A DNA stretch of 64,000 nt from the NCBI GenBank assembly GCA_029834535.1, contig JAQMWT010000396.1:1-64000 (forward strand), written 5' to 3'. Below the pieces are notes generated by a model that searched no databases, was not told where the DNA came from, and was given only the letters and a program-made list of their open reading frames with translations. How positions within the stretch are numbered: the first letter of the stretch is position 1; every line of letters starts with the position of its first letter. This document shows, in pieces, positions 5,066 through 37,218 of the stretch. The stretch comes from Chrysophaeum taylorii (lineage: Eukaryota; Sar; Pelagophyceae; Pelagomonadales; Pelagomonadaceae). Position numbers and translations under genes: made by a program.

Positions 5066-8000
5066 ACGAGGAGATCAAAGTCATCAAAAAGTTTGAGAAG
5101 CCAAGAGAGCTCAGCAGTAGCAGCGTAAAGAGCAAGCAATTCAGCTTCAAAGAACGAGCAAGTAAGTACTGCAGGCAGGGCAATGAGCTACCATAGAGCC
5201 AACAAGGAAAACAAAAACCAGTTGTGAAGTGGCGGAAGTCATCGGGTCGTCGGCCCAGCTGGAGTCGGAATAACCACAGAGACGAAGGGTAGAATCGCGA
5301 CCAGGGCAAGGGCAAGATCCGAAACCGTTGAGATAACGCAGAGTGTGGGATAAAGCGTGCCAGTGGGGTTTACCCGGATTGTGGGAAAAACGCGCACACT
5401 GATTGACGGACTGAAAACCGATATCAGGGGCGAGTCGTGATGGAGATGAGGACGCACAGCCAACAATACGGCGGGGATGCGTGCCATGAAAATGTGATCT
5501 GGAGAACCAGGAGCCGGACAATCAGCCGCAGAAAGATGGCCTTTGGGAGCGGGAGTGAGTTCGGGTTAACTGTTGATGAAGCGATGTTCGGTAAGGATTT
5601 CACGGATAGCATGGGTTGGTCGAGTGAGGTTCTCCGAGGGCGATCACGCGTAATGCGAAGACCAACGTAAGAGGTGAGATCAAGTTCATTGACGTCAGTG
5701 AAAGCGCGGAAACGGAGGAAAAAGGCTTGGTAATGGCCAATGCAATGACGAGGTGCGCCACAGAAGATCATCAACGACAAAACGAGACGTAGAGAAGGAC
5801 GGTAGAATGAGCACGAGCTTGTAATGGCAAGTGTCACAGATCCGCGGACGAAAGCAATCATTGAGAAGCGTTCAAATAAAGCCACCAATTACATTGTGCA
5901 ACCATACCAAGCGACGGAGCTTGTAAACGATTTTGGAACCATCGGTGGGTTGGCGAGGCATAGCCTTCGGGTGGCCAGACATAGATGTCTTCGTCAATGG
6001 GAGCTTGAATAAAGGCGGAGCTGACATCCAACTTGTGCAAATCCCAGTCATGAACAGCGACAAAGGTTAGAAAGAAACGGATCGTGACGATGTTGGCAAC
6101 CGGTGAGTAGGTGTCATGATAATCAATGCCGTGAACCTGGGTGTAACCGCGGACGACAAGGCGAGCCTTGTACGATTTGAAGCGGCCAGAGTCATACTTC
6201 TTGCGGAATCCACTTGAGGGTACAAATGTTGCCAGAAAAAGTCTCAGGGAGGGCGAATAACATCCCAGCAACCAAGCTGACCAAGAGGCTGTATTCTTTG
6301 GCGATGGCTTGCAACCAGCCAGGACGCTCAGGATTGGTCGGAGCTAAAGCTTCACGTAAATGGGTGGAAGTAATAGTTTCGTCAAGGTCTGAATACTGGG
6401 ACATTTCTTCGGAAGCAGAGTAATAAACGTGTGCATGGGGATCAACAAGGGTGTTAGCTAAACAAAGGGGAAGGAAGACATAATGAACTAACAAACGAAA
6501 GCTAACAGAGACATACAAGAGTTACAGGGAAACAGAAGCGACAGAGAAACAGAATGGCCCGTATCGACATCAGAATGGCCCGTATCAACATCAGAATGGC
6601 CCGTATCAACATTGTGACAGGATGAAACAGAATGGCCGTAAAAAAAGTTTGTTGGTTGTTGTAACGCGCGTTGGTCGACTTTGCGCGGTCGGCCCCGTTT
6701 GGCACGACGTAATGGTGCACGTTTCGTATTGGCCGGTAACAGTGTGGGCAGTGACGTTTCTGGGGTGATCAGTCCCGATAAGGCCGGCTCCGGAGCATCA
6801 AAAACAAAGGACATTTGGGGCTACGGCCGAAGATAAACGAGGGTCGTAATAAAACAAGATAGGAAAACGAGAATCCACTAGAGACGGAGGAAGGGGTTGA
6901 GTGGACAGTGTACGCAGAGCGAAATTTTCGTCAAAAACAACATCAATCGAGGTGTGGATGACAGGACCTGTGGGGCGTTGAAGCAATATGCGATATCCAG
7001 GGCCTGCAGAGGGATACCCAATGAAGATACCGGTTATAGCTTTGGTAGGCCATTTGTCGCCAGTAAGAATTGCAGCAGGACAGCCCCAAACACGAAGAAA
7101 ATCGACACGCGGGAGTGTTTCATGTAGCATTTCATATGGCGTCATATATCCAGGATTAGAGGCATTTGGCATACGCTCAGAGATGAAGTCAGCCGTTTCC
7201 ATGGCCCTACGCCAAAAATCAGGTGGACGGTGCGCATGTACCAAAAGAGTGCGAGTAATATCCGCGGTTGCGCGATGAGAGCGTTCCACAACACCGGAAA
7301 AAGCGTGCGCCTGTGAAGTTTTGGACTGTGCTGCCGGAGCGCGCCGAAGCGCAATATTGTTGCCCAGACAGAAGGTTTCAAATTGGCCCATAAGAGAGCG
7401 GTCACGATCGGTGTAGATGAGAGCAATGCGATATCCGAATGGGCGAACCACGGTAGACAGAAAAAGTTCGAGTTGACGAGCGTTCGTAAGGGCATCGTGT
7501 CGTGGAGCAAAGTAACGCGTGCGGCGGCGCGTATGATCATCGACAAACGTGAGGATCGCGCGATCTTGATATATGTAGGATGGGACGCCGGCAAACATGA
7601 GATCGGCATGGATAATAAGGTAGGGCGCAACGGCACGTGGACGAGACAAAGGCTCGGAGGAAGGAGACGAAGTGGAAGCATGAGCTTTACGTTGGCCAAC
7701 ATGCGCAGCATGCATTTTACCGAGAGCACAAGCAGGACAAAAAGAAAGCGACGCGGAGCTCGGGAAAAACGGTGCGCCAACAGCAAGAGAAGACAAACGC
7801 CGAAGATAGGCAGGACTATATGGCCAAGAAACGCCGAAGATAGGCAGGACTATAACCAAGACGAGCATGCCAAAGATCGAAAGTTAGTTGAGTGCGTTGA
7901 GACAGCGGGAAACGCACAAGGATCATGGACACGATGGGAAGAAGAAAATGCCACAAAAGGTGAAACGTAGTCCGTGTAGGGCGCAGCGGTCGTATTGCCG

Positions 8001-21854: not shown

Positions 21855-24800
21855 ATGTCGGGCGGCGGCGTCAGGATCCGCGAGGACATCGTCGCCGCGA
21901 CCCTCGAGGCCGCGCGCATGATCGCGACCGAGGGCCTCGGCGAGAACCAGCCCGCGCACGGCTTTTTGTTCATCATCGGCGACTCGACCGAGCTTCTCTC
22001 GCTTGATCCGGAACTCCCTTTCGCACAGCCCGAGTTTTCAGTCTGTTCGAAATACGGCATCTTCCCCAAAGAATTCGACCGCCGCCGCGATCGCCATATT
22101 TTGATTGAAAAATGCTCCCAGAGCGACGACGAAAAGCGGGCCCTCCAAGCCCTCTGCAAAGAAGACGGCGCGATCGTCGTAGACGGCGTATCGGGCCAGG
22201 TCTGCTGCGGGGGGTTTGTGAATCGCGACCTTACTACGCCTTATGGCAGGGGCGCGCGCACCAAAGCGGCCTCAGCGATCGCGAAAAATGCGGATTGCAT
22301 CTCTATCAAGGCCTCACAAGACATCTGCAGCACGCGCACGAACCCGGTAGCACCGGATGCGCACTTTGAAGTGTTCCGGCACAGCTACGATGATCCCCAA
22401 AAAATCGCTGTGGTGGAGAAGGCGCCTCGGTCAGCCAGCGAGACTGCACCTCCGTCGCTTGAGTCGCAGCTGCGCCCACTCTCGTTCAAAGCCGAACTCA
22501 AGTGGCACATCAAGCACTTTGTCGTCGGCACGCGCGACTGGATTCTCAATGAACTCATTTCTTGGGTTCACAGCACCGACGCCCCTCGATGCTGCGTCTT
22601 GCTCGCCGGACCGGGCTTCGGCAAGACGGCCATCGTCGCCAAACTGTGTTCGCAGCTTGGAGACGATGTTCTTATCGCTGTTCACCTGGTCCGCTACAAC
22701 AACGCCGCCAAGCGAGACCCGTGCCGCGTAATCACGTCGCTCGCGTACCGAATCGCGCAAGTGCTGCCGGCGTACCGCAAAAATGTCGAGGAGGTTCTTA
22801 GGGCCGGAAGTTGCGATCGGAACGATATCGCGCAGCTCGTGGACTGCATGCTCCTCGAGCCGCTCGCCAGCATCGAACTTCCCAACAAAGGTCGCCTGCT
22901 CATCGTGATCGACGCGCTCGACGAGGCTGAGCACGCGACGAAGAACGACCTCCTGGATCTCATCGCGCGTGAATTCCCCAAGCTCCCGCCTTGGGTCGCG
23001 GTACTTGTCACCTCTCGACCAGAGCTCACCGTGAAAACCAGATTGGCTACCCTTCGACCTAAATTCCTCGACTCTGAGGAGAACGCCGAGGAGTGCGCCG
23101 TGGACGTCCGCCGGTTTCTCCGAGCCATCCTCGCTCCAGTTGTCGAGCCCGAGCGCCTCGAAGACGCCATGAACACCGCTGCCGCCAAGACGCAGGGTCT
23201 CTTCTTGTATCTCTACTGGCTCCGAAAACGCCTCGAAGACGAGCCCCACGCTGATATCGAGGCACTCCCCGACGGCCTCGCCGGCGAGTACCTAGCCCAA
23301 TTTACTCGCGTCTTTTCCGACGGTTTTAGCGTCGACTGCAGACACATCCTCGGAGCCATCCTCGTCGCTCCTGACCCACCGCACATGAAAAGTACGTTGC
23401 CGGGTCTGAGCGGCGTCCCCGGATGCAAGGCAATACTTGAGACACTGTCGCAACTCTTTCCCGTGCGCGACGACGATTGCGTCCACGTCTTCCACAAGTC
23501 AATCGCTGACTGGCTAACGGGGGAGCACCCATATGTCCACCGCTCTGACGAGGATCCGTACTTCATCGACAGTGTCGCTGCTCACCATCGTGCCGCGGCC
23601 GCGTGCGTGGCCGCGCTTCTTCCCAAACTCGAGGCACCGAGGAACGTCAACAAGAGCGATGCGCACGCGGCGGCAATGATTCGCGCGGAGTGCAGCGGTA
23701 CCGGTGACGACCTTTTGGCTCCAGATGATTATGCTGTGCGATGGGCGATCACGCATCTCGTCGCGGCGAAATTGCACAATGTCGCGTTGGCGCTGCTGTG
23801 CTCGTTACGCTTCGTGACTTTGCGAGTTGAAGCGGGCCAGATGTTCGACCTTATTGGGGATTCATCCAAAGTTCCTGGAACGGAGGCGACGCTCGTGCGT
23901 CGGGCTTTGGCCCTTTCGCAAAACCACATGCGACTTTTTGGGGGGTGCGCGATCCTCGCAGAACAGCTCTGTCAGCGCCTGCTGGAGCCTGCTGAGACTT
24001 CGCGTGCTATGGCGGTTTTGCGATTGGCTGGAGATGCGCGGCAGATGGCTCGGGGTATGCGGCCCCTGATGATCACGGCGCGCCACGCGAGCCTCACGCC
24101 GGCTAATACGCCACTCCAGTGCGTCCTCGAGGGTCACAAAGGAATTGTGTTTGGTGTGACGGCTTTTAAGACGAGCGATGGCGAACCGCGGCTGGCGAGC
24201 TGCTCTGATGATGAGACGGTGCGCGTGTGGGACCCAAACGCGAGTCGCGAGCTCTTGAAGCTCGAGGGGAACACGGGTGCGACGTGTGGTGTGGTGGCGT
24301 TTGAGACGAGCGACGGCGCGCAACTGTTGGCGACCAGCTCTGATCACGGGAGAGTGCGTGTCTGGGACCGGAATACAGGCGTCGTAATTCGCGAATTCGA
24401 TGCAAATGGGAGTAGTTTCGACCCCGAAGATAAACTCGGACTCGGGGTGTGTGTCGTGACTTCGTTCGAGATGAACGACACCACGTGCCTCGCTATCGGC
24501 TGTCGCGATTGCACCGTGCGCGTGTCGGACCCGACCACACGCCGCGAACTCCGCAAGCTCGTGGGTCACAAGGGTTTGGTGCTAGGTGTAGTGGCATTCA
24601 AGATGAACGGCGCCACATGCCTCGCGAGCTCCTCAAAAGACACGACAGTGCGCGTCTGGAACCCGATGGAGGCCCGCGAACTCCTGACACTCGAGGGTCA
24701 CCGGAGATGGGTGAACAGCGTGGTGGCATTCGAGGCGAGTGATGGCCCGCGGCTGGCGAGCGGCTCCGACGACAGCACGGTGCGCACCTGGAACCCGACC

Positions 24801-26009
24801 GACGCACGCCAACTCCGCAAACTCGAGGGCCACCAGGATTGCGTACGGTGCGTGGCGGCGTTCTTGACGAGCGATGGCACGTGGTTGCTTGCGAGTGGGT
24901 CTGACGACAAGACGGTGCGGGTCTGGAATCCATCCGAAGGCCACCAACTCAACAAACTCGAGGGCCACTATGGCATGGTGTATGGCTTGGTGGTGTTCGA
25001 GGTCAGCGAAGGCGAACTGCGGCTGGCGAGCTGCTCCAGCGATAGGACGGTGCGCGTCCGGGACCCGATCGCGACCAGCAAAACGTCTGAGCTCGAGACC
25101 CACAAAGGCGCTGTGTTTGGTCTGGCGGCGTTCTGCACGAGGGACGGCGAGCCGCGACTGGCGAGCTGCGCTGGGGATAGGACGCTGCGCGCGTGGGATC
25201 CGAGCACTCGCCGCGAAATCCAGAAACTTGAGGGCCATGTGGGTGTGGTTAATGGCGTCGTGGCATTCAAAATGAAAGACGCTATACGCCTCGCGAGCTG
25301 CTCCTCGGACATGACGGTGCGCATGTGGGACCCGACCACAGGCTGCGAAATCCGCAAGCTCGAGGGCATCCATGCTTCTGGCGTGACGGCCTTCAAGATG
25401 AACAATGAAGTGTACCTGGCGATCTGTGAATTTTTCGAAGGGAAGCTACGAGTGTGGGATCTCGAGGGCGGCGAACTCTGCAGACTTAAGGGCAACCTAG
25501 GGTTTGTGAATGGTGTTGTGGCATTCGAGATGAATGACGAGGTGCGCCTCGCAAGCTGCTCCGATGATCAGACGGTGCGTGTTTGGGATCCGACCACAGG
25601 CCGCCAACTCCACATCCTCCAGGGTCACCAAAGCTCTGTCCTTGGAGTGGTGGCATTCAAAGTAAACGACGCCGTGCGACTCGCGAGCTGTTCCAACGAC
25701 AAAACGGTGCGCGTCTGGGACCCGGCCGACGCACGCCGACTCCGCAAACTCGAGGGTCACCAGGATTGGGTACGGTGCGTGGTAGCGTTGGAGGCGACCA
25801 ACAGGACCCCGCGGCTGGCGAGTTCCTCCTACGACAAGACGGTTCGCGTCTGGGACCCGATCGCCGGCGCCGCACTTCGAGTGCTCCCCGTGGAGAGCAC
25901 AGTACTTAGCATGACCGTGTTAGAGATGAAGGCGACAGACGGGGACGACCTGGTCTGCGCGTTTGGCCACGATAACGGCATGATCTCGTACTGGGACGTC
26001 CGCATATAA
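21855..26009 (+). CDS. DAC-like nucleotide-sensor domain + NACHT ATPase + WD40 protein
   Basis: A single-exon 1384-residue protein. Residues about 10-165 resemble the DisA_N/diadenylate cyclase fold: HGFLFIIGD (35-43), CKEDGAIVV with the DGA motif at 104-106, and GRGARTKAASAIAKNADCISI where the catalytic RHR is replaced by RTK (135-137). This suggests a cyclic-dinucleotide or nucleotide sensor rather than an active cyclase. A pre-NACHT segment (FVVGTRDWILNELISWV, 222-238) is followed by Walker A GPGFGKTA (252-259), Walker B LLIVIDALDEAE (348-359) and sensor VTSRPE (385-390). FHKSIADWLTG (546-556) is typical of NACHT proteins with C-terminal repeats. From about 757 to the end there are about 14 WD40 units (LEGHxxxVxxVxAF...LASCSxDxTVRVWDP), enough for two seven-bladed propellers. 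The architecture is that of NLR/NWD immune or self-recognition ATPases that assemble on ligand binding. The ligand and output are unknown. Confidence 0.88.
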   Translation: MSGGGVRIREDIVAATLEAARMIATEGLGENQPAHGFLFIIGDSTELLSLDPELPFAQPEFSVCSKYGIFPKEFDRRRDRHILIEKCSQSDDEKRALQALCKEDGAIVVDGVSGQVCCGGFVNRDLTTPYGRGARTKAASAIAKNADCISIKASQDICSTRTNPVAPDAHFEVFRHSYDDPQKIAVVEKAPRSASETAPPSLESQLRPLSFKAELKWHIKHFVVGTRDWILNELISWVHSTDAPRCCVLLAGPGFGKTAIVAKLCSQLGDDVLIAVHLVRYNNAAKRDPCRVITSLAYRIAQVLPAYRKNVEEVLRAGSCDRNDIAQLVDCMLLEPLASIELPNKGRLLIVIDALDEAEHATKNDLLDLIAREFPKLPPWVAVLVTSRPELTVKTRLATLRPKFLDSEENAEECAVDVRRFLRAILAPVVEPERLEDAMNTAAAKTQGLFLYLYWLRKRLEDEPHADIEALPDGLAGEYLAQFTRVFSDGFSVDCRHILGAILVAPDPPHMKSTLPGLSGVPGCKAILETLSQLFPVRDDDCVHVFHKSIADWLTGEHPYVHRSDEDPYFIDSVAAHHRAAAACVAALLPKLEAPRNVNKSDAHAAAMIRAECSGTGDDLLAPDDYAVRWAITHLVAAKLHNVALALLCSLRFVTLRVEAGQMFDLIGDSSKVPGTEATLVRRALALSQNHMRLFGGCAILAEQLCQRLLEPAETSRAMAVLRLAGDARQMARGMRPLMITARHASLTPANTPLQCVLEGHKGIVFGVTAFKTSDGEPRLASCSDDETVRVWDPNASRELLKLEGNTGATCGVVAFETSDGAQLLATSSDHGRVRVWDRNTGVVIREFDANGSSFDPEDKLGLGVCVVTSFEMNDTTCLAIGCRDCTVRVSDPTTRRELRKLVGHKGLVLGVVAFKMNGATCLASSSKDTTVRVWNPMEARELLTLEGHRRWVNSVVAFEASDGPRLASGSDDSTVRTWNPTDARQLRKLEGHQDCVRCVAAFLTSDGTWLLASGSDDKTVRVWNPSEGHQLNKLEGHYGMVYGLVVFEVSEGELRLASCSSDRTVRVRDPIATSKTSELETHKGAVFGLAAFCTRDGEPRLASCAGDRTLRAWDPSTRREIQKLEGHVGVVNGVVAFKMKDAIRLASCSSDMTVRMWDPTTGCEIRKLEGIHASGVTAFKMNNEVYLAICEFFEGKLRVWDLEGGELCRLKGNLGFVNGVVAFEMNDEVRLASCSDDQTVRVWDPTTGRQLHILQGHQSSVLGVVAFKVNDAVRLASCSNDKTVRVWDPADARRLRKLEGHQDWVRCVVALEATNRTPRLASSSYDKTVRVWDPIAGAALRVLPVESTVLSMTVLEMKATDGDDLVCAFGHDNGMISYWDVRI

Positions 26010-28679: not shown

Positions 28680-30832
28680 GTGGTCTCAGAAACGGCGGGA
28701 ATCGATAGTCCAACGACTCCCGGACTATCGATCGATCTCCTTGTTTTTCGGCGGCGAGTCGGTTCGTAACGGTCGAGCGAGTGCGAAGCCGACGCATTTG
28801 TGGGTGAAGATCCAGGGGATCACGGGTACCGCCGCGGGGTTCATTTTGCGTGATTCGGATCGAACTGGGAGCGGAGTCACTACGACTCATTTTGCATGTT
28901 TTTGCATATCGTAACTGAGGGGCATTGTTATTAGTCCTAACCTAGCTCGCGCGAGGCAGACCACCACCTCCCTGACGGCGAGCGACAGCACCGGGAAGGC
29001 CGTCCCTAGTCTTCACGCGCAAGGCAAATACTTCCGTAAGTAAGTCCAGCGCACCGGTACAGCGCGCAGTAGTCAGACGGCCGCCGGCAATTGTCGTCTA
29101 ACGAAAAAGAATACAACAAGCGAGTTGTGAGCGTTCGGATTAATCCTATTATCCGGGCAAAGCGCGGTCATGGCAGAGAGGCCAATGACAACAGAACGAC
29201 CGCAGTGGTTTCGGGACGCACAGGAAGGAGCGTCTGCAACGATTCGGTGCAGCGACTCCGTTCTCGTCTATTGGAAGAACACCGTTGAGTGCGCCCTTTC
29301 CACGGCCGGAAGCCGAGGAAAGCGGCATCGGAAGAGAGGCAAGGTCATCTGATAGCCTCGACAGCCCCCCAAGCGTGATCATCCTTCCGGATCCACGCGC
29401 CGGCGAAGGGGGAGCTACGTAGGTTGCGCCAGACGCAACTTCAAGACCGGGCGAGCCGACGTTTGTACGTACGCACGACCCTACGAACGTGCGATGACTA
29501 CGACGGAGTCATCTCGAGCGGAACCCGGACCATTTACGGCGATGCGTGGACCAGAGGAGAGTGCACCTCCTATAGGCCACCATCCGCGAATACGAGAGTT
29601 CCGCCAGATTTTCGCGGGGATGCCGACCCCGAGAAGGTTCTGCAGACCATCAACGAACGATTCGAGATGTGCCAGTCGCAGATCGAGCAAGTCCTACGTG
29701 AACTTGAGCGCACCCGCCGCGACTCGCAACAACAACGCTCAGAAGTGGAGCGGCAGCGGATCGACAACTACTTCGACGAATGGTGGAGGAATCCACGCGG
29801 GCGCATGCTCGAGAGGCACGGCCAACCTCTCCGGATGCCACGCGTGTTACGCCCGACGACGATGATGACGCTGTATCGGCACTGAACGACGATCAGCCAC
29901 CGCGAAGAAGTCGACCGGAGCCTATCCCGCAGCATCATACGGACCCCGGTTCAGCACGTTCTCGTAATGAAGAAGAGATACTTCATATCAAGAAAGGAGC
30001 TGCTGGTGTGACTCGTATCACGTTTTCGCCTCTCAATGGGCAAATTACTAAGGACCGTGATGAGGTGGACGCGTGGTGGATGCAATTGCGGCGTATGATG
30101 GAAGGCAGGATTGACAAACCCTCAATAGCGATGAACGTGATTGGAGGCGAGTATCAACTCGCCCCTATGGAAGCTTATCGCAAATGGGAAGCCGAACGGC
30201 CGCAGATGTGGAAACAATATAAGGAAGGAACCATCACATTGAAAGAGTTGCGCCAGCATGATGAGGACTGTCTGGATGCTATGCAAGAGAAGACGAAGCT
30301 TCCTTGTCCACCTCGGGCTACGGTTGAGGAGCTTGAACGTGAATGGTTCAATTTACGGCAAGGGAATTTGTCATTGAATAAGTATATTGCGCGATGGGTG
30401 CAGAAATTCGGCCAGTGGCGAGCAATGTCAGGTCGCGATACTGATCCTGCTGCGTTCCGTTCGCACTTCATTGCTGGGCTCAATTCTGAGCGCTTGCGGA
30501 CGAGCGTCGAACTTGCTCAGGCCTCACCCCGTATGAAAGCATCTACTCTCACCCTCAACGATGTCATTCAATTGACCATCCAGATTTCCAAGATGCTGGA
30601 AACCAACCCTACTGCCAACATCGAAGATGCGATTAAGAAGGAGAAGGGAAAGGAGCGCGCACCACGGATGAGAAGAGAGCAGCAGATGCAGCAGATGCAC
30701 CAGTGGCAGCCAGTACAACAGGTTGGTTATGTTACCGACTCGGGATTTGGAAACTGGTTACCACAGGGGATAGATACCAATGCGCGTCTAGCAATTATGA
30801 CGTGCCTCAGTTGCGGCCGGCATGGTAATTTT

Positions 30833-33732
30833 CAGCGTTGGGAATTCACTGAGCTCACTTCACTAGGTTCACTGAATTTGGTTCACTTCACTTCACTTCA
30901 CTTCACCGAAAATTTTTCGTCCGAAGTCCAATGTTCACTTCACGTTCATTCACTTCGGCTGACGGCCTGACCCTGACCCCGTCTGATGAGCGAAGTCGAG
31001 CCGCCCACCTGGAGGTGGAGGATAATGTTGATGATGAGGAGGAATTTAAACGCGGAACAGAATGAGGAAGTTCACAAGAACGAGCCGATTGCGACGTCGA
31101 TGTTGTGACGTGGAACACACCCGGCAAGAGTGGACGATCAACCAGGTCCAAGGTGTGGGACTGCGTGCGTCGACTGAAGGAAAATCATCCTGACCGCGTC
31201 AGTGGGAAGGCGACGCATGTGTGTATCCGGTGCTGGGAGCGCCTGAAGGTGACGAGAGACTTCAAGAAAGGCACATGGCAGACGACCAAGCCTCTTGCCC
31301 ACTTCAAGGCTGCGCATCCGGAGGACGACCTGGGACGTCAACAGCTCACCAAGAAACAGAAGACAGACCAAGAAAAGGAGAGCGTTTTTTATGACGGCCG
31401 TGGGCGTTGTGGCAGCCTCGAAGGGTAAATCGGATATTACGAGATACTTCATGGCCATGCCCAGCCAGGCAAAGCACTCTTCCCTGATGGCATTCTCGGC
31501 TCGGCACTACGTGTACACGTCGCAGCGCATCTCCAAGCGCACCTTTGACTGACGACGAAGATCATCGCAACCTAATTGAGGCGGCGTATTACCGCGGCGG
31601 TGGCGGGAAAGGCAAGCGCCCTCGTTCATGACTCGAAAGGCGCTGTTTGAATGGGTGGACGCTGAATATTTTTTGCTTTGTTCGAAAATCTTGAAGCACG
31701 TCGTGACGGAGTGTTATGAAGCGGCGGCTTTCGGCAATCCATTCGCCCAGGTGCTCCATGACGGCGGGACATCCACAAGGATAAGTTCAAGCGACGGGCC
31801 ATTGGCCTTTTATCCTTCATCTGGCCCGATTGGAGTGGCGTCGAGACGGTGTTCCCGCGTGGGCCTCGTTCCAGCTGACGACGGAACCGATTCCGGCACG
31901 GCTTCCCTGCTCCGTTCTGTGGTCGCGGAGAGTGCGGGAATCGATATCGATTCGGCGGCCGCAACCATTGTTCAATACCGGGCTGCAATTGGCGTCGCCG
32001 AAGAATTTTTTGTTGAGGTCGAAGCGTGTGACATGCATGATATCTCAAAGATCTCGGCAGTGGCATGTGGCGACTTGACACGATCCAGAGGCAAGCGGGT
32101 GATTAATCCATTCCCAACAGGCCAGGAGCTGCTGAACAGTGCCCACGATGGAGCCAAGTACTTTTCTTACGGCACACACGATTGAAGGATCTGCATGCGC
32201 TTTTGCCATTACAGCCGGGGAAATAAATCGCTGAAGCTCAAGCTCGACCTCAATAAGACGAGGTTCCGGGCGCGATACCAACTTATTCGTTCCTTGCTGC
32301 GTATGCGCCACGTGCTCAAACTGAACGCGGCTACCAACATTGGATTCCCCTGGACAATCAGTGATGAGCAATGGGTGGCGTTGCCTGAATTCGAGGCGAT
32401 TTTTGCTATAACTGATGCGGCCGTTGTTTTCGTGCAACGTGAACACTTATACCTGGGGGCGTGCGCCGCATTGATCAAGCAAAACATGATCGAGTCTCAG
32501 CGAGCTGGGACGCTAGAAGTCATTTATCGCCCGAACACAACTGCGAAATCCATGCCACGTAAGACTGTCTCGATGTTGACGATCTCAGCGAGACCGGCAA
32601 AATCTGTCTTGAACAGGTTATTCTCGAATGTGAGCGTCGTTTTTTTTGCGGGAATAATGAAAACTACGTGCGTCACTTCGACTACGAATTCAACGATCGC
32701 GAGCTGATTGCCTTCCTTCTTGACTTTCGGACTATCAACTGCCGGCACCTGTCGTCCAATCAGAGAGCTCAGGCCAGGAAGTTGCTCAAGGAAGAATATG
32801 TGATTTACGCACGGACTGCATTCCACCACGAAAAGGCAAAGACTTCCTCCGAGCCTGCGCCTGCCCGCAGTCTCTTGGCGACACTCGACGCACCCGGCGC
32901 TTGGGACGACATTAGTGGCGACGTGCCTTCTTTTGCTATGCCTGAGAACCAGATGCCCGATTTCAATGTGGAATTTGAACAGGTCTTCACTCAATGGACC
33001 AGGCTCTCGAGATCGCTCAACTGGAAAGAGCATTATCCTGAACTTGAGAAGAAGGATGAAGTCGGCTTCAGAGATCTGGCTGTGCTCGACGTTGGAAAGC
33101 TGTATCGACCGCTCACCAAGGAGCAGTATGGGTTCCTTCCTTCCGGAGATGGCGAGAGCCTCTAAGGGTTCAATTGATACACATGGCGCGCAGAGCTACT
33201 GTGAGCGCTGCCTGAGCATTGGAAATCTTGTCCTGACTGAGGGAAACACGTTGCTCAGCGCGGACGAGACGGACAAAGTTGCCCTACTGTGCATGAACAA
33301 GAATTTCATTGCGGCGGCCCGGATTAAGTACAGGGACCTCGGACACGAGACCGAGTTTTTCAAAAACGCCGAGAGCACCATCCCCGAAGACTCTTCGGAG
33401 ATGGAGGTTGATGAGGAAGAACCAGACGAAGATACCGAGGTCGTTCACATCGCCTAAAGTAAGAAACACTGAACCCCATCCACGGTAACTCCTCTTTCGC
33501 CCCGAAACGCGAAAGAATCTAAGAGCACCAGACCTAGGCAATAGCGCGCGGGGGGCACGGAACTGACGGGGCGCGACAGGGACCGGCGCTGGCGTTAAAA
33601 AAAAAAAAAAGAAGTGGCGTTCACTTCACAAAGGTTCACGATGGCCACGCAGGGTGACGTGTTCACTTCACCAATATTGCGTGGCTGGTGAAGTGGTTCA
33701 CGTTCACTTGCTGAAGTGAATTCTCAACGCTG
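30833..33732 (+). mobile_element. hAT DNA transposon inserted in the Gypsy gag region
   Basis: Left end cagcgttgggaattcact and right end (reverse complement) cagcgttgagaattcact form 18-bp terminal inverted repeats with one mismatch. Flanking 8-bp target duplications are gtaatttt (30825-30832) and gtagtttt (33733-33740), with one mismatch. The 8-bp duplication and the proteins fit hAT. Coding remains on the plus strand include a BED zinc finger (about 31105-31320: CVRRLKENHPD...CIRCWERL...HFKAAHPED), a middle section (31626-32700), and a C-terminal dimerisation segment (about 33180-33310: SYCERCLSIGNLVL...LLCMNKNF). The transposase is split over several frames (about 31105-31428, 31628-32185, 32195-32707, 32668-33165, 32915-33457), so it is either interrupted or heavily spliced. 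Both ends hold repeated TTCACTTCAC motifs, likely subterminal transposase sites. Confidence 0.85.
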
Positions 33733-35802
33733 GTAGTTTTAACCACGACAACGGTGTGTGTCCTGTGCCGGACAATCCCTCGAGGAAGAGGCGTGCTGCT
33801 CAGACGTTGACTAATGCGGGTTTTCCAGCAACGCCAGAGGGACAGGAGCAATACCGACGGACGCTTTTAGCTGCAGCAGGACAAGCTTCAGTGACTCAGC
33901 TAGCGCCGCGCGTTGTGCAACAACCACAGGTGGTCTACACAGCAGCACAGGTGCCAGGTACAGGTCAACAGCAGCTGGTTGCAGGCACTCAACAGCGTTT
34001 GGTTGCAGGCACTCAACAGCAGGTGGTTCGAAGGCAGTCCGCAGTGCAGCGGACCGTTCAGACCTCGGTGCGCCTCGAGGATCTGACTACGGCTCTCAAC
34101 ACGATGAACTTGATTCGTCAGGCACAGCAGACGGCTCCAACGGTTAGAGGGCAACAGCCTCAGAGAGCAAACCCTAGCCAGCGCAATGATGGTGTCGCCG
34201 CTCAGTGGCTTGAAGTGCTTGGCGAAGATCAGGATGACGCTAAGCGAGCGGACTACTGCACTGTGCAGTATTCTGAGCTCATGGAGGGCAACGTGTATGA
34301 CGATGACGATGTTGGGGGCGATGATGATAGCTTCTCTGCAGAAGGCTATTCTCCTGGTGACCCCATGGAACCTCCTTCCTTTTTGGTCATCACTGAAGAT
34401 GCGTGGGTGGAGGAGCAGGAGCAAAGTACCGAAGTGACCGGAGTTGCACCCAGAGTTCCCTCGGAAGACGAAGATAATCGTGACGGATTGGGATATACGA
34501 TTGTTCGTGTGGGACAAGATACCTTCGTTACTATGGATATAGTGCCACCAAGGGACGACTGCGCCGAGCGTTATGCCGCTCACCAATCCATCTCTTCGGA
34601 TTTCGAGAGTTTCTGCCCTCAGACTTCGTTGAATACCACTCAGGATCCCGACCATCGCGAAAATAAAGCCGTGAGGTACGATGGCACGAGATCCACATCT
34701 TTGACGTATGTGCCTGTGGCTATCTCTTCGCTAGATGGTTCGAAATATTCCATCATCGCTGCCGGTTTGGATGGCATGGCTGATTCCCCCTACATCGAAC
34801 ACCGCTTGTATCGCAAACTTGATCGTGACGGCAAAATCATCTATCGTCAGCCACTCCCTACGATTCGTACTCTGAATGGGTCAGGAGGTTCGGGAGCTGC
34901 TATTCGAGAATGGGTCATTCTCCGGATCTCCTTGGTGCCAACGACATCCATGCTGCTCATGTTCTTCGTTGGTCAAACGAATGGGCAGTTACTTTTAGGA
35001 GCACGAGAATTACGACTCTTGGGTACGATTTGGGATTGTGCAACAGAGAGAGCTATTTTTCGGCGTTCTGAAGTGACCATTGGAGTTCTCAAGAATCGGA
35101 CTTCCGCCTCGCCACAAGACCAGCATGGAATTGTCCTTTACAATGATGCATTCGATGCGACTCCGCAGGTAGTGCAGATGTTCCCGACAGCTAAGCTTGC
35201 TGTCCAATACGGAAATATCAAAACTTGGACGCCAGTTGGTAAACCGTGGAGTTATGACAGTCTGCTGCGCTCTATTCGTATCAGAGCGAGCCACCATCAC
35301 GTTCCTCCCGGTGATCCGACTGCTGAAAAAGCGGAAGACCAACTTAAATGCCCTGCAGACGAGGAAGATATCACCCCTCATTTCGCGTACGTGACGAGTA
35401 CTCGATTTCTTCTTCCAAGCCAACCGTACTTCTTGGAGATGGAGTGCGATGTGCCGCTGGAAAAGGGTCACGTATTCCGACCTTATCGGTCACTCCTCCA
35501 AGATCTCCGCCTTGTACCTGGTTCCTATTCATCGTATTGCTCCGACGAGCCCAGCGAAGTTCATGTGGCTGTGGAGCACATTGGTGACGAACCCATTGGT
35601 ATCGACCCCGAAGTCCCGGTGGTCGAAGGCGAGGTCATGCCGCATGAAGGATGTGTCAACATGCAGCTAGAAGCCACTGATGACGTGTGTCATGCCACTC
35701 TTACGGCTGCTGTTGACGACATTGAAGTCGAGGAGGATGTCTTGAGTGACAGACCTCCTCCTCAGCCACCTCCAGATGAAGAAGTGAAAAAAAACACCAG
35801 AA

Positions 35803-37218
35803 ATGGAGATGGAGGCGACTGCTAAGGAGCTGCTATCTAAGCTCGTCTCCTTGGTTTGGATACCCATCACCTACACCTTTGTCGTCGTCTACTTTGCTGG
35901 CGCTGGAGGATCAACGTTAGGTATCCGGCGATGCAATGAGCTATATGGCAGTTCATTTCGCATTGTCCTGGCTTTGGATGCTTGTCCTCAAGCCCGAGCC
36001 ACCTTTGAGCTCAATTTTCCGAAGATTCCCTATGTTTTGCATGAGCTGGGGAAATCTCATCGTCGTACATACGACTTGGTGTTGTCGTATTTACATTCAG
36101 ATTTTTGGAAGCATTCTTCTTATTTTCACGCCAGTCCGCCGTGTATCTATGGATCGACTGCCAATTTGCACTACAGGGACGCACGCAAGGGCGCTACTAT
36201 TACTTCTTGGGTCCTGTGTCACTTCCGCAACGCACCTTATGTGATTGGACGATGGACGCTCGAGCAGGAACCATCAGTGATCCCTTTTGTGCATCACCAA
36301 TTTTATGTGCCGCGTATTGTTGATTTCTATAGTATCACACCAGAGCTGCTGTGCTCGCGCACGCGCCTACTTGCGTGCAATTTTCGCTTGGAACTGCCGT
36401 TATTATCGCGTGTACCACCGAATTTAAGGGACTGTTTTGGGCCAGCGTTGGGATTTACAGGTGGTCACCCGCTCATTATAGTGAACAGTTTCTCATCTAC
36501 GCGCCCTGCTATCGGCCCTGCCTTCACGGTGACGCGCAACAAGCTCCACCTAAGACCTCATTTCTCGAACACCCATCCACTCACGTTGCAGATGCACCAG
36601 GAAATTATGACCGTTCCTGCTACGTGGCAACGGGGTGAGAAAGTTTCAGAGACAGCAGCTATGAAGATGCTTGGCAGTGTGGTGCCACCCGCGACTATGA
36701 AGCGGATCGCGCTAGCAGTGCACAATTCGTTTGACCCTTCACTTCGAAATTCGGGTAAGTTGCGGAATATTGCGACGACTACGATAGCCCACCCCGATCA
36801 CCATATTCTACGATTTTCACCTTTTGCTGAAGAGTCGCGCATTCCAGCGCTCGACCCTTCCACTCGAAGTGTGTCATGGATTTCGCCCGATGAACTCTAT
36901 TCTCCTGCGAGTCCTGCACCACCAGCTGCTGCCCCCACCACCCCGCCACCACCTTCAGTTACGTCGCCTGGGACGGCTTCATCTTTTGCAGGGGGCACCG
37001 TCGCCACTGCTGTTATGCAGAGCAACCAAGTCGACAACCAGCCCTCCGCAACTGCCGAAGAAGAAGGCACCGCGAAAGAGCGACCAGCGTATTTCAATAA
37101 GTACGACGTTCCGTGGGCGGACGCGCCTCACGACGAACATGGTCAACCTTTACCGGTGATGCCTCCTCATTTAGCGGGTCAGGAGAGCATGCAGGTCATC
37201 CCTCCGACCGTCGCGTAG
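35803..37218 (+). CDS. C5 cytosine DNA methyltransferase domain carried by the Gypsy element
   Basis: A 471-codon frame that overlaps the end of the preceding gag-protease frame by 23 nt. The order of C5-methyltransferase motifs is clear: motif I FAGAGGSTLGIRR (31-43), motif IV ASPPC with the catalytic cysteine (110-114), a motif VI-like RWTLEQEPSV (150-159), motif VIII-like CSRTRLLACNF (184-194), and motif X MLGSVVPPATMKRIALAV (289-306). The enzyme class transfers a methyl group from S-adenosylmethionine to carbon 5 of cytosine. The target-recognition stretch between motifs VIII and X is short. A proline/alanine-rich tail follows. No chromatin-reader domain is seen, so it looks more like a compact Dnmt2/DCM-type unit than DNMT1 or DNMT3. 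It lies in the coding region between protease and reverse transcriptase, so it would be expressed as part of the element. Treated as a part of a broken element. Confidence 0.82.
   Translation: MEMEATAKELLSKLVSLVWIPITYTFVVVYFAGAGGSTLGIRRCNELYGSSFRIVLALDACPQARATFELNFPKIPYVLHELGKSHRRTYDLVLSYLHSDFWKHSSYFHASPPCIYGSTANLHYRDARKGATITSWVLCHFRNAPYVIGRWTLEQEPSVIPFVHHQFYVPRIVDFYSITPELLCSRTRLLACNFRLELPLLSRVPPNLRDCFGPALGFTGGHPLIIVNSFSSTRPAIGPAFTVTRNKLHLRPHFSNTHPLTLQMHQEIMTVPATWQRGEKVSETAAMKMLGSVVPPATMKRIALAVHNSFDPSLRNSGKLRNIATTTIAHPDHHILRFSPFAEESRIPALDPSTRSVSWISPDELYSPASPAPPAAAPTTPPPPSVTSPGTASSFAGGTVATAVMQSNQVDNQPSATAEEEGTAKERPAYFNKYDVPWADAPHDEHGQPLPVMPPHLAGQESMQVIPPTVA

Follow-up and report, generated by a model that had tools for sequence, protein, structure and literature searches.

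Synthesis of c-di-AMP by diadenylate cyclase (DAC) domains is regarded as prokaryotic; bacterial DACs yield c-di-AMP only when two DAC domains stand face to face, as established for DisA. Among NACHT proteins, the close parallels are fungal NLRs with MLKL-like/HeLo or PNP_UDP N-termini and the HET-NACHT-WD40 (HNWD) non-self receptors of Podospora (HET-D, HET-E), which are ordered N-terminal domain, NACHT, WD40. Passages of a paper on fungal NLRs (PMC9815663) describe enzyme domains as known N-terminal effectors, MLKL-like and PNP_UDP-like N-termini as being among the effector classes, and swapping of N-terminal domains; DAC does not figure in this paper, the word 'cyclase' occurring 0 times in its main text. 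Among bacterial anti-phage systems, DS-2 is a CBASS with an added diadenylate cyclase, the DAC being a separate gene beside CBASS, and DS-8 is a NACHT with a metallophosphatase, i.e. NACHT plus an enzyme domain; a DAC-NACHT fusion is not among them in the excerpted part of PMC13092281.

Here we analysed a window of 64,000 nucleotides from the alga Chrysophaeum taylorii, in which one gene combines elements of these systems. Compared with DisA, CdaA, CdaM/DacM and DacZ (PF02457), its product scores below the Pfam cut-off and has RTK in place of RHR, and unlike bacterial and archaeal DACs its head is fused to NACHT-WD40 in a eukaryotic host. The order of domains is that of HNWD. In contrast to HNWD, the head is a DAC fold, HET is absent, and the host is a stramenopile alga instead of a fungus.

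A DAC-like head joined to NACHT and WD40

The gene occupies a single frame on the + strand, open from 21765 with an ATG at 21855, and carries the following features:

21855..26009, + strand: whole gene, DAC-like - NACHT - WD40 protein of 1384 aa in a single ORF
21876..22388, + strand: DAC-fold head, DisA/CdaA-like (aa 8-178; Pfam, AF2 model, Foldseek, VIA-align, paralogue P0007)
22164..22184, + strand: DGA motif inside DGAIVVD, intact (aa 104-110; DGA = aa 104-106)
22257..22265, + strand: RHR position, reading RTK (aa 135-137; register from profile alignments)
22527..23018, + strand: NACHT / NPHP3_N STAND NTPase (aa 225-388; NPHP3_N E 3.5e-22)
22605..22631, + strand: Walker A AGPGFGKTA (motif reading)
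22896..22931, + strand: Walker B LLIVIDALDEAE (motif reading)
23019..24119, + strand: post-NACHT region (aa 389-755), without confident domain
24120..26006, + strand: 14 WD40 repeats, blade-top positions being the most divergent between paralogues

The presence of a DAC-like head, NACHT and WD40 in one C. taylorii gene was confirmed. The degenerate RHR, the complete NACHT and the approximately 14 WD40 repeats of the original prediction were all recovered, as was the NLR-like order. The protein has the NACHT NTPase with Walker A and Walker B of STAND/NLR-type proteins and their succession of N-terminal domain, NACHT and C-terminal repeats, from which we infer the roles of the parts. The post-NACHT region gave weak Pfam matches only (TANC1 HTH, E 0.016; APAF1_C, E 0.055), and PADLOC returned a HEAT-ARM_XIII match within the WD40 region together with weak GajB and TmtA matches.

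The identity of the head was assessed by structure and by profile. An AF2 model (pLDDT 78.3, pTM 0.83) aligned structurally to DisA/CdaA in Foldseek and VIA-align, and the match was specific to the DAC fold; the comparison with DisA that had been proposed had a DAC fold as its outcome and not an unrelated one. The Pfam profile search was less clear-cut: DAC ranked as the best Pfam family, but with 16.3 bits against a gathering score of 27 bits. Weak Pfam matches to CCG (E 0.068) and gp12 (E 0.2), and 40S S12, the top row of a PDB-sequence profile search (E 0.2, with DAC at E 0.34), were set aside as identities of the head because the structural matches of the model point to DAC and outweigh them. 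With phmmer, aa 1-190 gave no match in PDB at E 10, and a HET domain was absent from aa 1-200 in a Pfam search at E 10 that returned three families. When the head family was compared with CdaA profile to profile, E was 0.004 (HH probability 8.4 per cent) if C418 was included and 0.14 (0.4 per cent) if it was left out, a weak match in which the register was unchanged. For the CdaA profile, 73 of 81 sequences from Cytophagales and their relatives were used; at the other 8 loci, both motifs never occurred in one frame.

The head family and its relatives

Twelve complete copies of the head are spread over 9 contigs of the assembly. DGA is kept in three of them (C396, C599 and C418) and its glycine is lost in 9/12; RHR is found in one (C418) and the His is absent from the other 11. 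The pocket motifs vary among copies as DGA, DNA, HNA or ENA and as RTK, RTR, RTT, RTG or RTQ. In an alignment of 11 copies (C599 excluded), the G, the first Arg and the AAS of GxRxxAAS as well as CGGF are invariant. Head dN/dS is below 1 in 66/66 pairs, with a median of 0.385. The C418 copy is a stand-alone paralogue (P0007) with DGA and RHR both intact; it scores 29.9 bits with PF02457, above the cut-off of 27, and is labelled 'DAC domain-containing' by a source. Its structure model had a pLDDT of 41.2 and was kept out of the fold argument.

The domain also occurs in other protein contexts. It heads LRR proteins without a detected NACHT (P0005 and P0008, in the source's gene models) and ankyrin/kinase proteins; it occurs in short ORFs on C677 and C600 in which NACHT was not detected, and in an ORF on C309 together with an MLKL_N-like domain that could be the executioner itself. 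In the copies without WD40, Pfam matched nothing in the middle domain of L049 or L052, and a PDB match was likewise absent; a possible CHAT identity, examined by hhalign against a CHAT-like piece on C165, gave an E of 0.031 and a probability of 1.6 per cent. Conversely, the slot before NACHT holds other domains elsewhere in C. taylorii, as in fungal NLRs: MLKL_N-like in C44 and two C359 genes, and PNP_UDP-like in C28. The NACHTs of these proteins are 40-46% identical to the window-type NACHT, and C44 and one C359 gene carry WD40 repeats at the C-terminus.

Protein searches at ~761-2422, ~153-488 and ~481-1531 aa returned 6, 1 and 7 proteins, all from C. taylorii or the window itself. Among 28 pattern stretches in viral contigs and 81 in prokaryote genomes, 0 were confirmed as relatives; the best E was 0.3 for the window head against phages and 3 for P0007 against plasmids. 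As these searches depend on shared words or moderate similarity, remote relatives may remain. A DAC match was obtained in 11 of 14 control genomes, E. coli not being one of the 11. The STING ligand-binding domain had no match in C. taylorii, nor in the 14 controls, so that its absence carries no weight; DHHA1, which occurs in c-di-AMP phosphodiesterases among other proteins, had 2 matches. A limited literature search (title and start of abstract, few subscription papers covered) gave no earlier DAC-NACHT protein or report of a eukaryotic DAC among the matches listed. We found no source for the statement that DAC-related sensor domains occur chiefly in bacteria: DACNV had no literature match, and 'diadenylate' and words starting with 'DAC' occur 0 times in the main text of PMC7159879.

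Diversification of the WD40 repeats

In three paralogue pairs, 43, 41 and 37 of 51 blade-top sites, selected after the repeats were inspected, were found to differ, compared with averages of 15.4, 15.7 and 11.2 in random site sets (n=2000). Blade-top dN/dS was 1.5, 1.2 and 5.1, the last value based on 4.4 silent changes, versus 0.40-0.49 in the remaining WD40. A scan of all repeat positions without site choice flagged 8 columns (2, 5, 8, 15, 16, 28, 48 and 50); 69-94 per cent of cells were changed at columns 15, 16, 28, 48 and 50 (27/36, 31/33, 33/39, 36/39 and 27/39) and 41-53 per cent at the other three. Column 14 was changed in 72 per cent, yet with pN < pS. The same columns vary within 14 repeats of two other receptors (C44, C359), whose internal repeat identity (0.85 and 0.87) is higher than that of the window gene (mean 0.48). 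According to passages of PMC1805685, diversified positions of HNWD likewise flank a Val and an Asp that are conserved from repeat to repeat, and the columns fit HNWD codons 7, 9, 25 and 27 in parts of PMC1805685 and PMC2873952, the codon mapping being our own reading. The WD40 comparison used a simple counting method, its three pairs are non-independent because they are drawn from three genes only, and repeat shuffling between loci could inflate the differences. In one of the three pairs (C454a-C454b), post-NACHT dN/dS (0.75) exceeds that of WD40 as a whole (0.66), which counts against the reading that we favour. Combined, DAC fold, NACHT and 14 WD40 repeats are joined in a multi-copy family in which blade-top WD40 sites are diversified and the head is conserved.

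Possible roles of the head

We favour, at an even balance between belief and doubt, an NLR-like non-self receptor in which WD40 recognises, NACHT clusters and the DAC-like heads, mostly pseudo-enzyme, are the output. The WD40 propellers would bind a variable, probably protein, ligand, upon which NACHT would switch and oligomerise like other STAND proteins, and the clustered heads would provide the output. Because bacterial DACs need two facing domains, heads driven together in this way would readily act as a switch. The window head would be mostly a pseudo-enzyme acting through DAC-DAC pairing, because RTK replaces RHR and the His is missing in 11/12 copies; it might bring in a catalytic partner or switch one on, the best candidate being the stand-alone C418 protein. 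A functional tie between C418 and the receptors is a conjecture, and the full scheme, in which a foreign protein bound by WD40 would bring the heads together and these would activate C418 as the alga's own diadenylate cyclase, making c-di-AMP or a relative, is in our estimate unlikely.

The original prediction had the head sense a cyclic dinucleotide. That its degenerate pocket takes up a nucleotide (c-di-AMP or a relative, whether a cue from bacteria or an alarmone of the host) and so licenses NACHT is doubtful in our view: the variable recognition surface sits in WD40, effector-class domains (MLKL_N-like, PNP_UDP-like) fill the same slot, and pocket motifs differ among copies. In its favour, the fold is retained despite degenerate catalytic residues, the GxRxxAAS and CGGF residues are invariant in the 11 aligned copies, and bacteria are present in the C. 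taylorii culture (in the relevant passages of PMC10366177). The domain also heads LRR and ankyrin/kinase proteins, in which the effector could be a different domain, and this speaks for ligand binding as well; a regulatory or ligand-binding head fits the forms without a detected NACHT and the MLKL_N-like C309 ORF equally well.

It is quite improbable that the window head is an active cyclase or transferase with RTK, perhaps with a product other than c-di-AMP and NACHT clustering as its switch. The DAC fold, purifying selection, the three intact DGA motifs and the enzyme effectors in passages of PMC9815663 speak for activity; against it, replacing either DGA or RHR by AAA abolished c-di-AMP formation by Bacillus thuringiensis CdaS (in part of PMC4568413). 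The loss of the DGA glycine in most copies argues in the same direction. NLR N-termini frequently act as adaptors, and the active sites are degenerate and variable; a purely structural or homotypic adaptor with nucleotide nowhere involved is, however, just as improbable, as the genome retains a paralogue with both motifs intact and some pocket-side residues are invariant. An artefact, be it contaminating bacterial DNA or a fortuitous motif match, has a negligible chance and is considered refuted: the assembly contains a bacterial CdaA contig (C301) and the head's own Pfam match is below threshold, but the genes that surround it in the window are of eukaryotic type (DUF3336-patatin, EF-hand, Myb), 12 complete copies lie on 9 contigs and the fold match is specific, in agreement with the predicted eukaryotic host.

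These results indicate that fungal-style NLR mosaics exist in a stramenopile alga, with MLKL-like, PNP_UDP-like and DAC-like N-termini on related NACHTs and diversifying WD40 blade tops. Via such receptors the algal cell may convert foreign recognition into a nucleotide-type alarm. If signalling through C418 were true, the alga would, to our knowledge, be the first eukaryote with a diadenylate cyclase, and its receptor the first NLR to signal by a cyclic dinucleotide as second messenger. The existence in an alga of many DAC-fold copies on receptors of immune type, one copy of the family carrying both catalytic motifs, makes two questions directly testable: whether c-di-AMP is made by any eukaryote's own enzyme, and whether a cyclase fold is usable as an NLR output.

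Head copies in Chrysophaeum taylorii and their motifs

The window gene (21855-26009, plus strand) is a single unbroken frame of 1384 aa; its host, C. taylorii, is a pelagophyte alga (Stramenopiles). Adjoining genes within the window include those for a DUF3336-patatin, an EF-hand and a Myb protein. At 33756-37218 (plus), a 689-aa ORF without Pfam match overlaps a 471-aa ORF matching C-5 cytosine DNA methylase (E 1.1e-7). Two further features were found in the window:

6798-7868, minus strand: fragment of a retroelement (SH3_retrovirus match at E 1e-11, rve match weak)
29780-30970, plus strand: weak Retrotrans_gag match

The assembly searched comprised 70.8 Mb in 697 contigs, the window lying on C396; the published assembly is described as 71 Mbp in 702 contigs (PMC10366177). 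Contigs C25 and C521 gave equal scores at near-equal positions (CHAT 69915/69905, MLKL_N 18620/18626), which suggests duplicated or uncollapsed contigs.

A search with the N-terminal DAC-like head of the window gene returned 24 rows from its own genome at E <=10, 21 of them below 0.001. Twelve complete single-frame copies were present on 9 contigs (C396, C599, four on C454, C165, C309, C575, C677, C600 and C418); the remaining rows were fragments or interrupted copies (C528, C677, C670, C675, C165) and three rows at E >0.05. Outside C. taylorii, searches of public proteins, viral contigs, prokaryote genomes, phages and plasmids, which pick up moderate similarity, found no head relatives. The head was joined to NACHT-WD40 on C396, C454 (two genes) and C165. 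C599 starts as these copies do, with a head 97% identical to the window's, and its frame is broken within NACHT. The public proteins P0005 (C454) and P0008 (C575) have an LRR architecture per the gene models of their source; the C575 frame taken alone had no Pfam match. The C418 copy has no partner domain. Further loci were:

C418:55094-55930 (L002 1258-2094): stand-alone DAC protein P0007, 279 aa, both DGA and RHR retained, Pfam score above cut-off
C309:612866-621898 (L047 867-9899): giant ORF, open frame of 3406 aa
C165:42727-43422 and ORF L057:6959-8431 (ORF on minus strand): divergent DAC-like domain over several frames, intron or decay
C301:22000-25350 (L001): bacterial contig within the algal assembly, folP-like gene (by eye), then CdaA (92% identity to a Cytophagaceae MAG)

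The C309 frame runs from a DAC-like head through an MLKL_N-like domain (24.4 and 29.5 bits in two scans, cut-off 27), ankyrin, protein kinase, and sub-threshold TPR and NACHT to more ankyrin. In four non-WD40 copies (L047, L048, L049, L052; alignment A4) a conserved middle domain of ~420 aa follows the head; it had no Pfam match and no PDB sequence match. Upstream of the split C165 domain is a region where CHAT-like motifs were picked out by eye (VTHD, LNACSS); Pfam gave no match.

The two motifs of bacterial diadenylate cyclases were then compared in the 12 complete copies. The DGA position reads DGA in three (C396, C599, C418), DNA in seven, HNA in one and ENA in one. The first Arg of RHR is present in 12/12, the His in C418 only, and the third position is R in seven, K in two, and a different residue (T, G, Q) in each of the other three. 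The window head keeps DGA and carries RTK for RHR, as originally predicted. Changing either motif to AAA in CdaS is described as abolishing c-di-AMP synthesis (PMC4568413); because of this and of its RTK, the window head is probably not a diadenylate cyclase of the usual type. Judged by its motifs, the C418 protein could be one, and is a candidate eukaryotic diadenylate cyclase.

Domains exchanged ahead of NACHT

Genome-wide matches numbered at least 14 for NPHP3_N and at least 13 for MLKL_N. Other domains precede NACHT at these loci:

C44:116425-120700 and C359:238312-246300 (L139-L141, L143, L144): receptors in which an MLKL_N-like domain precedes NACHT
C28:9100-10700 (L142): PNP_UDP-like domain, hydrophobic stretch (by eye), NACHT, another N-terminal swap

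The MLKL_N-like domains of C44 and two C359 genes gave E 1.8e-4, 5e-7 and 5.2e-5 (1/3 over cut-off), and the PNP_UDP-like domain E 0.0025, under cut-off. Identity between these NACHTs and the DAC-type NACHT is 40-46%, and the two C-termini read among these four genes (C44, one C359) are WD40. Effector classes of fungal NLRs include MLKL-like and PNP_UDP domains (PMC9815663). From its position, the DAC-like head would thus occupy a slot where output domains are swapped.

WD40 repeats

In three pairs formed by the window gene and the two C454 NACHT-WD40 genes, dN/dS was 0.34-0.46 for the head, 0.29-0.44 for NACHT, 0.40-0.75 for the post-NACHT region and 0.48-0.66 for WD40; over 66 pairs of the 12 heads the median was 0.385 and the maximum 0.64. 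Scanning every repeat position (13 repeats x three pairs) identified five outstanding positions (changed cells 27/36, 31/33, 33/39, 36/39, 27/39; pN > pS): the two residues preceding and the one following the conserved Val of GHxxxVxGV, and one residue either side of the conserved Asp of SxDxT. Three more columns were weakly elevated. In the C44 and C359 receptors (14 near-identical repeats, mean mutual identity 85% and 87%), variation is mainly at blade-top sites; entropy ranks 1-4 fall at the same positions, the residue after Asp sharing rank 6, with one R/P position elsewhere ahead of it. In Podospora HNWD receptors, codons 7, 9, 25 and 27 are described as positively selected, as lying on either side of the conserved codons 8 and 26, and as part of the propeller's interaction surface (PMC1805685, PMC2873952); by our reading of the repeat, these four are equivalent to the positions surrounding Val and Asp. 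Combined, the position-specific variation and this parallel indicate that, at the sequence level, the WD40 domain behaves as a diversifying recognition surface.

Possible roles of the head

These results establish the head's modelled fold and its motifs, the domain architectures, the number of copies, the pattern of selection and slot swapping. Whether the head is an output module is evenly balanced in our judgement; output is preferred over sensing mainly because the slot swaps MLKL_N-like and PNP_UDP-like domains. Against it, some copies of the head come with no detected NACHT, and the head is also found next to another putative executioner; it may therefore be a regulatory or nucleotide-binding module instead. 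That the head is a nucleotide sensor is doubtful: the original prediction had it sensing a cyclic dinucleotide or related alarmone, and recognition traits lie in WD40 while the head would sit in an output slot; it may still bind a nucleotide. In the proposed mechanism, the propellers would bind ligand, NACHT would oligomerise, clustered heads would pair DAC-DAC, and the catalytic-looking C418 protein might be engaged.

The NLR-type receptor itself is of a known kind. No earlier report of a DAC-fold N-terminus on a eukaryotic one was found in literature searches confined to an open-access collection. What appears new here is the DAC-fold N-terminus on an NLR-type receptor, in a eukaryote.
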